Source of the DNA: a virus
Virus record (IMG/VR): IMGVR_UViG_3300040806_000201
Coordinates: 1 to 28,110 of that record
Length of the DNA stretch: 28,110 nt
Strand: one strand, 5' to 3'
Positions 8,878 through 13,428 of this stretch are shown here, piece after piece. The notes beneath the pieces were generated by a model. It made no database searches and was not told where the DNA came from. It worked only from the letters and a program-made list of their open reading frames with translations. A program made the position numbers and the translations under genes. Each line of letters starts with the position of its first letter. Within the stretch, counting starts at the first letter, position 1.

Positions 8878-9464
8878 TGGCAACAGTTTTTGATGATCTA
8901 TTGCTCAGAGGTGTTCGTTCTGGTGAAGCTCCAGCACGAACTCAAGCATCTAGAGATTGGTTCAGACAACAAGCACGACAGACACGAGGCGCAAGACCTA
9001 CAGAAATTTCTAGGGATAGAGATCGTCTGGTAAATCGTGCGGGCATTGGTCGAATGTATTTCTTTTTCTACGATCCAAAAACTAAAGCGGATCTACCATA
9101 CTACGATACATTCCCACTCATCTTCAAAGTGGCAAATACAAAAGGTGGCTTTTACGGCATCAATCTACACTATCTGCCATACAAACTTAGGGCTAAGTTG
9201 ATGGACTCTCTGTATGAAATATCTAATAATAAAAAATATGATGATACAACGAGAATCACATTATCATATAGATTATTAGACAGTGCGTCTAAATATAGAT
9301 ACTTCAAACCTACGTTCAAAAAATATTTGAATAGTAATGTTCGTTCAAGGTTTATAGAGATTAATCCATCAGAATGGGACATCGCATTGTTTCTTCCAGT
9401 CGAGAGATTTGAGAAAGCAAGCAAGTCACAAGTCTGGAAAGATAGTAGGAATATGATTGCATGA
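8877..9464 (+). CDS. Conserved T4-like virion protein, possibly gp2 (DNA end protector)
   Basis: 195 residues. The N-terminal ~50 residues are arginine-rich and probably flexible (RQQARQTRGARPTEISRDRD). The core contains GRMYFFFYDPKTKADLPYYD and GGFYGINLHYLPYKLRAKLM, a pattern conserved among T4-like phages. In T4, gene 2 (DNA end protector, required for head completion) adjoins gene 4, and this gene directly follows gp4 with a one-base overlap. The gp2 call is therefore a context-based suggestion, since this protein is shorter than T4 gp2. The end overlaps the next gene by an ATGA. Confidence 0.5.
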   Translation: MATVFDDLLLRGVRSGEAPARTQASRDWFRQQARQTRGARPTEISRDRDRLVNRAGIGRMYFFFYDPKTKADLPYYDTFPLIFKVANTKGGFYGINLHYLPYKLRAKLMDSLYEISNNKKYDDTTRITLSYRLLDSASKYRYFKPTFKKYLNSNVRSRFIEINPSEWDIALFLPVERFEKASKSQVWKDSRNMIA

Positions 9465-10153
9465 CTTTCAATGCTCAATCAATTATCGCATCACTCAATA
9501 AATCTGGTGTTGCAAAGGCTTCACATTTTGAAGTTCAGATCACTGGCGTTGGTGCTACTGATCTAGAACGTGATATGATGTTTCGCTGTGATAGCGCCGA
9601 ACTACCTGGGCGCACTATCACATCCGCAGAACATAGAATCTATGGACCAATTCAAAAGATTCCATATGGTTCACTTACTGGCGATTCAAATCTCACATTT
9701 CTTCTTAGTGAAGACTTGAGAGAAAAGGAATATTTTGATCAGTGGCAATCTAAGATAGCGGGCGTTAATACCTTCGGTCAAGGCCGTTCAAAGTATAATG
9801 TAGATTACTACGACACTATCACGGGCCAAATCATTATTCGTCAGTATGGGGAAGCAGGCCAACTAAGTAGTATTCACACTCTACTCGAAGCATATCCACT
9901 ATCAATAGGACCAGTGGCAATGGCGTGGAGTGATGATACTATAGCAAAACTAACAATCACATTTGCATTTAAAGATTATAAAGTGGTGTATAATCGTTCA
10001 AATCAACCAGGTCTTGGCCAATCATTTGGCTTCTCGTTTGGCCCTGGAGGGTTTGCGGCTTCAGCGAGAAATCAAGTAGGAAATCTAGCAATCGACAGCG
10101 CATTGGGCGCAGTAGGACAAGTGAATACACCATTTGGAGCGATTAGACTTTAA
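9461..10153 (+). CDS. Tail-tube-fold protein, gp54/gp19-like
   Basis: 230 residues. ASHFEVQITG, CDSAELPGRTITSAEHRIYG and PIQKIPYGSLTGDSNLTFLL are hallmarks of the T4 gp19/gp54 tail-tube family, in which a beta-barrel ring stacks on the baseplate. It is longer than the main tube protein gp19 (163) and shorter than T4 gp54 (320). Given its neighbours gp48 (opposite strand) and gp26, I favour the tube initiator gp54 over the major tube subunit. The C-terminus is glycine/phenylalanine-rich (SFGFSFGPGGFAASA). It overlaps the preceding gene by ATGA. Confidence 0.72.
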   Translation: MTFNAQSIIASLNKSGVAKASHFEVQITGVGATDLERDMMFRCDSAELPGRTITSAEHRIYGPIQKIPYGSLTGDSNLTFLLSEDLREKEYFDQWQSKIAGVNTFGQGRSKYNVDYYDTITGQIIIRQYGEAGQLSSIHTLLEAYPLSIGPVAMAWSDDTIAKLTITFAFKDYKVVYNRSNQPGLGQSFGFSFGPGGFAASARNQVGNLAIDSALGAVGQVNTPFGAIRL

Positions 10154-10173: not shown

Positions 10174-10869
10174 ATGGCACTACCAGTGATCTCTACACCA
10201 GAGTTCTTTGATGCGCTACCCTCAACAAATGAGGAAATTAAGTACAGACCATTTCTTGTGGGTGAAGAAAAATCTCTTCTCATTGCAATGGAAGGTCAAG
10301 ATCAAAAAGAGATATCAAATGCAATTCTAAATCTATTGAAGAATTGCCTTATTACAGACCTTAATATTAATAAACTTGCTACATTCGACATCGAATATCT
10401 GTTTCTAAAGATCAGAGGCAAGTCGGTAGGTGAGATTATTAATGTACAAATGACACATACGGAAGGCGACTGCGAACACCGAACTGAAGTGCAGGTTAAC
10501 CTTGATGACATTAAAGTACAAGGCGAAGTGAAAGATTCAAAAGTGATGATTACCGATGATATTGGTGTCTCTCTAAAGTATCCAACACTCGCAAGCATTA
10601 TGAATATGAAGAACGATGGCGCAGATGCCATGTTCACCATGATTTGTGAGAATATCGAATACATTTATGATAGTGAGCAAGTATACAATGACTTCTCACA
10701 GCAAGAAATTGAAGAGTGGGTAAACGGTCTAGGACAGGCTCAATTTAGAAAAATCACAGAATTTTTTGAGGGCATTCCTAAACTATCACACACTGTTGAA
10801 TGGAAGTGTCCTAAGTGTGGTAAAGAAGATTCAGTAGTGCTGGAAGGGCTACAGAGTTTTTTTACCTAG
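10174..10869 (+). CDS. 26: Baseplate hub assembly protein gp26
   Basis: 231 residues (T4 gp26 is 208). The pattern LPSTNEEIKYRPFLVGEEKS, LLIAMEGQDQKEI and the C-terminal zinc-knuckle-like CPKCGKEDSVVLEGL match the T4 baseplate protein gp26 family. AGGAG lies nine bases before the ATG. The family acts in hub assembly rather than as an abundant structural part. The last codons run through seven T residues in the exact register of a -1 slippery heptamer, and the -1 frame continues without a stop into the gp51-like ORF. A 291-residue fusion is therefore predicted as a second product. Confidence 0.85.
   Translation: MALPVISTPEFFDALPSTNEEIKYRPFLVGEEKSLLIAMEGQDQKEISNAILNLLKNCLITDLNINKLATFDIEYLFLKIRGKSVGEIINVQMTHTEGDCEHRTEVQVNLDDIKVQGEVKDSKVMITDDIGVSLKYPTLASIMNMKNDGADAMFTMICENIEYIYDSEQVYNDFSQQEIEEWVNGLGQAQFRKITEFFEGIPKLSHTVEWKCPKCGKEDSVVLEGLQSFFT
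10857..10863 (+). promoter_or_regulatory. Candidate -1 ribosomal slippery heptamer T TTT TTT
   Basis: In the gp26 frame the sequence reads AGT TTT TTT ACC TAG. The heptamer fits the X XXY YYZ rule exactly, six bases upstream of the stop by codon count (TTT, ACC, TAG). After slipping, the frame reads TAC CTA GCA TTG and stays open for 61 codons to TAA at 11046. Confidence 0.6.
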
Positions 10870-11048
10870 CATTGATACACGACTCTCTGAGTAATATGTA
10901 TCAAATGAACTTTGCACTTATGCAACATCATAAATATTCGTTGACTGAACTTGATAATATGATTCCCTTTGAAAGGGACATATATGTGACTTTGTTAAGA
11001 CAATATCTTGAAGAAGAAGAAGAGAAACACAAAGCACGAAAGAGGTAA
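10863..11048 (+). CDS. gp51-like hub assembly protein, probably expressed by frameshift from gp26
   Basis: The -1 frame yields YLALIHDSLSN followed by MYQMNFALMQHHKYSLTELD and PFERDIYVTLLRQYLEEEEE. The 'P(F/W)ERDIY..LL...L.EE' pattern is the kind found in the downstream ORFs of tail-assembly chaperone pairs and in proteins called gp51 in marine T4-like phages. A stand-alone start is possible at the ATG at 10896, but no convincing ribosome site precedes it (GAGT only), and the residues before that Met look like coding sequence. I infer either a gp26-gp51 fusion by -1 frameshifting or weak independent initiation. Confidence 0.62.
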   Translation, partial: YLALIHDSLSNMYQMNFALMQHHKYSLTELDNMIPFERDIYVTLLRQYLEEEEEKHKARKR

Positions 11049-11053
11049 GTCAA

Positions 11054-11389
11054 ATGGCTGAAGAAAATAAAGTAACCATTGATGCAGATGCAGTAGCAGG
11101 CGCAGATAAGAATGGTGATGGACACGTTTCTAAAGAAGAGATGGAGATGCATTTGGAATTTAAACGTAGAGAACTTGAAGATAAAGACGCACAAAGAGAT
11201 GCTATTCGTAAGATGGCATGGTTTTCTTTGATTGGTTTATTGGTATATCCAATTGGTATTGCAGTAACTTCTGTGCTAGGTCTAGATAAAGCCGCAACGC
11301 TCATTGCAGACATTGCGCCAACATACTTTGCATCTATTGCTGTATTGGTTTCAGCATTCTTTGGTGCGGATGCATTCAAAAAGAAATAG
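11054..11389 (+). CDS. Small EF-hand membrane protein
   Basis: 111 residues. Residues 18-29 form a complete canonical EF-hand loop, DKNGDGHVSKEE, with ligands at positions 1, 3, 5, 9 and 12 and glycine at 6. A charged helix follows (HLEFKRRELEDKDAQRD), then two predicted membrane helices (about 54-76 and 86-105). AGAGG precedes the ATG. There is no signal peptide; the N-terminus probably faces the cytoplasm or the inside of an assembly. The gene lies between gp26/gp51 and the tape measure. A calcium-responsive membrane protein or holin-like role is possible but not shown by the sequence. Confidence 0.7.
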   Translation: MAEENKVTIDADAVAGADKNGDGHVSKEEMEMHLEFKRRELEDKDAQRDAIRKMAWFSLIGLLVYPIGIAVTSVLGLDKAATLIADIAPTYFASIAVLVSAFFGADAFKKK

Positions 11390-11397
11390 GATAACCT

Positions 11398-13428
11398 ATG
11401 GCCGAACTACCTAAAGTAGATGTTGTCTCTGAAGAGGCTGTAAACGACATCACTGAAAGCAATAAAGATAATCGGGAACGCTTGCAAAGGAGCATGAGAG
11501 GCGGTCTTCTCAATGTCCGCAAGTCTGTCGATAATCTTAATGCTACAGTGCAACAACTACTAGAACTACAACAAGCGGGTTGGGATGCCCAAAGACAAAA
11601 AGCAGGTCTTGATCTTGAAGCATCCCGTGAAGCCGCTAGAGCCGCTAGAGGAGTAGACGGCGGTGGTGATGGTGATGTTACTGTAAATGGTGACGTTACT
11701 GTTGACGCTAATAAAGGCGGCGGCGGTCTGTTCGGCAAAATAGGTAAAGCAATTGCAGGCGGCATCGGCGGCATGTTATCAGGACTTGGTATTGGTGGCG
11801 GTGCGCTACTTGCTGGTGCCGGTATTCTTGCTGGCGGTGCTGGCTTCCTTCTCAAGCAGATCAATGAACTAGACGGTAAAGCAATCAGAGCCAATGTCCA
11901 AGAACTTCTAGGCATCAAAGATGACTTTGGTGGAATGGGCAACTTCTTCTTAGAGGGTGGCGCATTTTTCTTAGCAATGACAGGAATTGGTTTAGGTCTT
12001 GCGGCTTTCTCTCTTGGCACTGGTGTTGCGGCAGCCGTAGATTACTTCACACAAGATTCAAACTTTGCTGAAAACATCAAACAAAATGTTCTTACACTTC
12101 TAAGTATTGGCGATGCCGCAGGCGGCAATCTGTCAATGTTGGCAGACAGTGCTTCCTTTGCCGCAGCCATGGCAGGATTAGGACTTGGTCTTTTAGCATT
12201 TTCTATTGGTAATATTGCAGGTAGCGCAGCCTCAGGTATTGGTGATGCTATCGACTACTTCACTGGTGGTAACTGGGCAGAGACAATAAAAAAGAATGTC
12301 CTCACTCTCTTATCAATCAAAGATTCAGCAGGTGGCAATCTATCATTCTTAGCAGACTCAGCAGTGTTTGCGGCTGCTATGGCAGGACTGGGATTTGGTC
12401 TACTTGCATTCTCTGCTGGATCTGTTGCTGGAGTGGCCTCATCTGGTATTGGTGAGGCAATTGATTACTTCACAGGTAGTAATTGGGCAGAAATTATTAA
12501 AGAGAATGTGATGACATTACTGTCTATCGCACAATTGCCTGGCATTGGCACTGATACTGCAATCTTTGCCGCAACAATGGCTGGTATTAGTCTAGGTCTT
12601 GTTGCGTTTGCTTTTGGTCAAGGTGCCTCTAATGTTGCCAATGCTATTGGAAAATTTACAGATGAAGAAGACTTTGCTGAAAGAATTAAAAGACAAGTTG
12701 GTGTTCTCTTATCAATCACAGATGATCCTGGTATTAGTCCAGCCAAAGCAACAGAGTTTTCAAAGACATTAGGTATCATGGGTGCAGGCCTTGCTTCCTT
12801 TGCTGGTGGTCAGTTCATTGGCGCACTCGCAAATGCCGCATCAAGCATCATGGGCTTTTTGACTGGATCAGATTCTCCTATTGAAGAAATGGTTGCAATT
12901 GCAGATAAAGCAGATGACTTAGAACGTGGTGCTACTGCACTAGAAAAGATTGGTGATGCATTGAATAGCATTGCTGGTCTACGTTTTGATGGATCATCTC
13001 TTAACATCAAAGACTTTGCACAAGACTTGATGGAATCAATCCCAGCAATCGAAACTGCTATTATGGGCGGCACAGTAGGAGCAGGATTCCTCTCTTCTGG
13101 TATACAAATCAAGGGTTTAGCCTCACCAGATATAGATTTTGAATCTGCTACGAAACGACTAGGTGAATTGCGAAACGCTATGGTGGCTAATCCTACCGTG
13201 GCTACGGGTGCGGAGGTAGACGTTAGAAGCACTACTATCGCTGATGCAGAAACAGCCACAGGTGGAGATGTTATCACTTCTGCACCAACTGTTGTCAACA
13301 ATGTAAGTAATAGTCAACAGAGTACAACTGTCGCACCAGCAAGAGCATCACGCAGAACAAGACGCTCTGAAATCAGAAGCGGTGCTACAGAATACACAGG
13401 CAATAATCCAACTGCACTTGCCTTCTAA
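11398..13428 (+). CDS. Probable tail tape measure protein (gp29 equivalent)
   Basis: 676 residues. An N-terminal helical part with NLNATVQQLLELQQAGWDAQ is followed by a glycine/alanine-rich hydrophobic centre made of five tandem repeats and a low-complexity C-terminus (ATEYTGNNPTALAF). Length, hydrophobic repeats and position beside hub assembly genes and the tube protein fit a tape measure, which sets tail length and passes into the envelope at infection. T4 gp29 is about 590 residues, so this tail may be slightly longer. I see no direct similarity to T4 gp29, so the call rests on architecture and context. AGGA precedes the start at 11398. Confidence 0.72.
   Translation: MAELPKVDVVSEEAVNDITESNKDNRERLQRSMRGGLLNVRKSVDNLNATVQQLLELQQAGWDAQRQKAGLDLEASREAARAARGVDGGGDGDVTVNGDVTVDANKGGGGLFGKIGKAIAGGIGGMLSGLGIGGGALLAGAGILAGGAGFLLKQINELDGKAIRANVQELLGIKDDFGGMGNFFLEGGAFFLAMTGIGLGLAAFSLGTGVAAAVDYFTQDSNFAENIKQNVLTLLSIGDAAGGNLSMLADSASFAAAMAGLGLGLLAFSIGNIAGSAASGIGDAIDYFTGGNWAETIKKNVLTLLSIKDSAGGNLSFLADSAVFAAAMAGLGFGLLAFSAGSVAGVASSGIGEAIDYFTGSNWAEIIKENVMTLLSIAQLPGIGTDTAIFAATMAGISLGLVAFAFGQGASNVANAIGKFTDEEDFAERIKRQVGVLLSITDDPGISPAKATEFSKTLGIMGAGLASFAGGQFIGALANAASSIMGFLTGSDSPIEEMVAIADKADDLERGATALEKIGDALNSIAGLRFDGSSLNIKDFAQDLMESIPAIETAIMGGTVGAGFLSSGIQIKGLASPDIDFESATKRLGELRNAMVANPTVATGAEVDVRSTTIADAETATGGDVITSAPTVVNNVSNSQQSTTVAPARASRRTRRSEIRSGATEYTGNNPTALAF
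11893..12890 (+). repeat. Five tandem protein-coding repeats (63-70 codons each)
   Basis: Units begin near 11893, 12085, 12295, 12505 and 12694 at the pattern NV(L/M)TLLSI or its variants (NVQELLGI, QVGVLLSI). Each unit then has a hydrophobic AAMAGLGLGLLAFS segment and ends with DYFT...WAE.IK or similar. Units 2 and 3 are most alike, which suggests a recent duplication. Confidence 0.85.

Follow-up and report, generated by a model that had tools for sequence, protein, structure and literature searches.

The G-T frameshift is described in a review as conserved in long-tailed phages with the exception of T4 (PMC5009743). For the T4-like phages, the tail chaperones were identified by Vladimirov, Gautam and Davidson (Virology 2022, 566:9-15), as cited in two papers (PMC10885494, PMC12846349). 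The second of these, on phage Adele (PMC12846349), credits the same study with the poly-T slippery sites in the TAC-N genes of T4-like phages, and PRFect gives its outcome as the presence, in some T4-like phages, of two copies, a short one and a long fused one. Going by these citations, the equivalence with gpG/gpGT is already published for T4-like phages, and it is because of that work that the core of the frameshift-chaperone idea is already known. The TAC locus of the Vandenendeviridae/Andersonviridae (phage Adele, PMC12846349) likewise carries a conserved poly-T stretch (GTTTTT) near the end of TAC-N with an open -1 frame downstream; these are other phage families with another motif than the one described here. 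In T4, assembly requires gp51, which is not found in the particle (PMC3004832).

The DNA studied here, referred to as the window, is a stretch of 28,110 nucleotides (IMG/VR record IMGVR_UViG_3300040806_000201) from an uncultured marine T4-like phage. Judged by gene order, its nearest relatives with an annotation belong to the marine T4-like phages, Pelagibacter phage HTVC008M and Methylophilales phage Melnitz among them. The gp26 gene and the gp51-like ORF that follows it (Table 1) very probably form one tail-assembly-chaperone gene, whose long form would be made by -1 ribosomal frameshifting. Programmed frameshifting joining these two ORFs had been proposed in a first-pass annotation, and the comparative sequence evidence given below strongly supports it. 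With the T4-like chaperones of Vladimirov et al., as they are cited, the locus has in common a gp26-family short form and a long form with a gp51-type extension. The window locus is accordingly a new member of that group, to which the hairpin and the codon statistics may add detail.

Table 1. Features of the gp26/gp51-like locus and its neighbours (window coordinates)
Feature	Position	Strand	Remarks
Tail tube protein gene	9461..10153	+	phrog_45, E 2e-27; directly 5' of gp26
gp26-like ORF, short form (gpG-like)	10174..10869	+	231 aa; matches PF12322 and phrog_150
SD-like tract GGAAGGG, possible 5' stimulator	10842..10848	+	8-9 nt upstream of the heptamer
Slippery heptamer T_TTT_TTT (T7)	10857..10863	+	exact X_XXY_YYZ register
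-1 frame extension (gp51-like; T domain of the long form)	10863..11048	+	61 aa + stop
Zero-frame stop TAG of gp26	10867..10869	+	a single sense codon (ACC) between heptamer and TAG
3' stem-loop, probable stimulator	10871..10905	+	core stem 10872-10879 with 10897-10904, TTGATACA/TGTATCAA; 8 nt past the heptamer
676-aa repetitive hydrophobic protein, candidate tape measure by position only	11398..13428	+	same place as the HTVC008M gene

The gp26 ORF ends in AGT TTT TTT ACC TAG. The run of seven Ts stands in the register reported by the first-pass annotation, which had made only a small miscount in placing it two sense codons, instead of one, before the end of the frame. Its reading of the -1 frame was also correct. 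This frame runs without interruption from 10824 until a stop at 11048, the product after the slip has 61 residues and starts with YLALIHDSLSNMYQ, and translation across the slip yields the predicted fusion of 291 aa. Upstream, the -1 frame offers two start-like codons only, TTG 10872 and ATG 10896, neither of them preceded by a Shine-Dalgarno sequence, in agreement with the earlier remark that the gp51-like segment lacks a good ribosome site.

The identity of both parts is clear from profile searches. The gp26 ORF matches PF12322 over residues 14-230 (E 1.1e-67; 228 bits against a curated cut-off of 24.5) and phrog_150 over profile positions 5-233 (E 1.9e-70). For the extension, matches were obtained to phrog_634, the gp51 family (E 8e-26), and also to the C-terminal end of phrog_150 (E 2e-6, positions 239-278 of 282), straight after the part matched by gp26. 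A search of NCBIfam gave no relevant family. Compared with gpG/gpGT of lambda, the N domain of the window protein has a zinc-ribbon-like motif (CPKCG, in the C-terminal part of gp26), and the searches made revealed no sequence similarity between the window proteins and lambda gpG. The slippery sequence differs as well, being of the T6N type in the window; that of lambda is GGGAAAG.

The structure of gp26 was modelled with AlphaFold2 from 45 gp26 sequences, with rows taken from the window and contig scans only, and the model is confident (mean pLDDT 88.7). No significant match was obtained when the PDB was searched with this model. Chains of the HK97 tail assembly chaperone 2ob9 ranked 5 and 6 (probabilities 0.28 and 0.20; E 1.1 and 1.9), and 0.28 was the top probability among the matches listed, which is below significance, so that the predicted fold is only suggestive of a likeness to the HK97 chaperone. 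PDB sequences searched by profile yielded no relevant match, and a search of viral predicted structures with the model returned gp26 relatives.

The order of the tail tube gene and gp26 is also found in HTVC008M, phiM12 and Vibrio K571, and is syntenic with the G/GT loci. This synteny, together with the architecture of T4 gp51 described below, supports the equivalence of gp26/gp51 to gpG/gpGT that had been put forward for this locus. Sequence homology searches with the candidate tape measure protein gave no match to a tape measure or any other protein; the HTVC008M record labels the equivalent gene 'putative tail tape measure'. Between the gp51-like segment and this gene lies a small ORF (11054-11389) that encodes an EF-hand-like calcium loop (DKNGDGHVSKEE) and, after it, two hydrophobic stretches, probably membrane-spanning. 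A similar protein occupies this position in HTVC008M, Melnitz, phiM12 and others (18 of the 101 loci scanned). The gene after gp51 in Synechococcus phage S-PM2 (L017:3173-6168) encodes a long protein with matches to the Pfam phage tail lysozyme (E 4e-21) and to ADP-ribosyltransferase (E 9e-6).

Relatives were collected mainly by gp26, the largest set (80 loci) through one N-terminal pattern distant from the site; six of the 21 named records entered via extension or DNA matches, which is a small bias. The first-pass annotation had proposed an alignment of relatives, and had named an interrupted T run accompanied by a start codon with a ribosome site as evidence to the contrary. The alignment did not overturn its reading: TTTTTTN occupies the register seen in the window in 113 of 117 relatives, between 0 and 9 nt ahead of the gp26 stop, the last base being C in 78, T in 31, G in three and A in one. 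After sequences of more than about 80% identity were dropped, the heptamer was found in register in 82 of 85. It is also present in all of 80 further loci, a set fetched by the extension and hence selected for it.

Codon usage at the site points to constraint on the nucleotides. In every one of the 82 representatives the codon before TTTTTT has T as its third base, against 48.5 expected (log10 P about -20), and the first Phe is encoded by TTT, against an expectation of 53.5 (log10 P about -17); both P values assume independent sequences, which the relatives are not fully. The preceding codons are AGT, GAT, TCT, AAT, GCT or GGT (Ser, Asp, Asn, Ala, Gly). Acidovorax phage ACP17, with a gp26 of 59% GC, has TTT at the site, in contrast to TTC for the 12 remaining Phe codons of that gene. 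Moreover, some relatives with TTTTTTA or TTTTTTG have changed FF to FL and have retained the T run, therefore it is the nucleotides that are kept and not the residue. The heptamer thus persists despite changes in the neighbouring amino acids, in the second Phe and in genome GC.

Four relatives have TTTTC only, without a canonical heptamer, namely CBA120, two other Ackermannviridae and Vibrio phage K355 (L024, L195, L197 and L198). All of them retain a homologous gp51-like extension in the -1 frame, and in three of the four the junction is a TAATG overlap, which may reflect a switch to reinitiation or a weaker slip site.

Such overlaps raise the question of whether gp51 is instead a separate small protein, made without any fusion, whether through an internal start or by termination-reinitiation. 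Public annotation gives gp51 its own CDS in the fetched records, and in 36 of 80 relatives an ATG lies within five codons of the slip, sometimes overlapping the stop (TGATG, TAATG). However, in 40 of the 80 representatives, the window included, the first ATG of the -1 frame lies at least 10 codons in, and a Shine-Dalgarno match of at least 4 nt stands ahead of that first ATG in only four of the 80. The codons before it are nevertheless conserved as protein. Over codons 1-17 after the slip, the entropy by codon position follows the order expected of protein-type constraint (position 2 < 1 < 3), a pattern like that of the rest of the extension domain. A fusion would be expected to leave just such a stretch, conserved as protein yet lacking a start codon. 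Separate initiation would, in addition, leave unexplained the invariant in-register T6N, the downstream hairpin and the contiguous gp51 of T4. We therefore regard a gp51 made without fusion as very unlikely. As a main route, separate initiation is unsupported, given the few Shine-Dalgarno sequences and the constraint from the first codon after the slip; in some lineages it could be an additional route beside frameshifting, and the 36 with a near ATG could make some separate gp51 product.

Downstream of the heptamer, the window can form a stem-loop (folding z -2.7) that is probably a stimulator, judging from its folding and covariation. When 50 nt from +6 (+6..+56) were folded in the 80 relatives, the mean z was -1.59 and 31 of the 80 fell below -2; eleven other offsets gave mean z values from -0.70 to +0.27, so this segment is the outlier of the 12. 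In the clade of the window (16 sequences), 86% of the cells of the TTGATACA/TGTATCAA stem are paired and four pairs show compensatory change. The covariation score of this stem was reached by none of 500 shuffles, with slid versions scoring far lower, and it includes the effect of relatedness among the 16 sequences. The pairing register of the stem-loop varies by clade, an 11-bp stem being found in the P-SSM2 type, for example, and a single stem-loop common to all lineages was not found.

Upstream, an SD-like match of at least 4 nt, mostly 8-10 nt from the site, occurs in 79 of the 82 representatives. Synonymous codon resampling predicts such a tract in 75 of the 82, and an independently selected signal is thus unsupported; conserved Glu-Gly codons largely account for the tract. 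The dnaX cassette of E. coli likewise has an SD-like tract upstream, a heptamer and a stem-loop downstream (PMC5009743), but its slip site is A_AAA_AAG, the shift yields a shorter product and the function is another.

The spacing and register of these elements also bear on whether it is RNA polymerase, and not the ribosome, that slips on the T run and changes the frame. The tract is a homopolymer, and transcriptional slippage is a known recoding route (PMC5009743). Against this, the tract is just six Ts in 82 of 113 relatives, mostly ended by C, its register is always X_XXY_YYZ, and the stem-loop stands at a spacing usual for ribosomal stimulators. Slippage by the polymerase consequently appears even less probable than a separately made gp51. 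Finally, a chance T run or a sequencing error, although the genome is AT-rich and has several T6 runs, can be rejected with hardly any reservation, because no other in-register T6N occurs in the 5,731 codon positions of the 18 long window ORFs checked, and because two independent contigs (L001 and L002) share an identical heptamer that many phage families conserve (113/117).

If the locus works by ribosomal frameshifting, as we propose, most ribosomes would read gp26 to its TAG and make the 231-aa short form, and a minority would slip by -1 on T_TTT_TTT to give the 291-aa long form with the gp51-like domain. The slip would be aided by the stem-loop about 8 nt downstream, and perhaps by the SD-like tract upstream. 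By analogy with gpG/gpGT, the short form may coat the tape measure protein and the extension of the long form may recruit tail tube subunits, with the ratio of short to long form presumably set by the frameshift efficiency.

T4 itself has two genes, 26 and 51, separate and divergently oriented, whereas the window phage has one gene with a frameshift layout. T4 gp51 (249 aa) matches PF12322 over residues 1-201, phrog_150 from 13 to 280 with the extension included, and also phrog_634; the phrog_150 match of T4 gp26 (208 aa) ends before the extension. T4 gp51 is, in other words, a full gp26-like domain with the same extension as in the window, and therefore T4 encodes the short and the long chaperone as two genes. 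The gp51 of cyanophages has been described as lacking the first ~200 residues of T4 gp51 (Sullivan et al., PMC3037559). Frameshifting would account for these "missing" residues, which would be those of gp26. Sullivan et al. 2010 (PMC3037559) also list the gp51 of Aeh1 as missing, yet it is present in the -1 frame. We lean towards a history in which the T6N frameshift, with a 3' stem-loop varying by lineage and possibly a 5' SD-like tract, would be ancestral in T4-like phages. The split genes of T4 would then be a derived duplication, and the Ackermannviridae, with the heptamer lost, a second departure.

The gp51-like extension is unannotated in the records of VH7D, Aeh1, CBA120, ACP17 and Cronobacter S13 (L022, L023, L024, L025 and L026). 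As gp51 is entered as a separate protein, or goes unannotated, in many public records (those of Aeh1, S13, VH7D, ACP17 and CBA120 among them), the true long product, if formed as proposed, would be absent from such records. Although T4 is called the exception (PMC5009743), the frameshift layout is retained in marine relatives of T4 that are very abundant.
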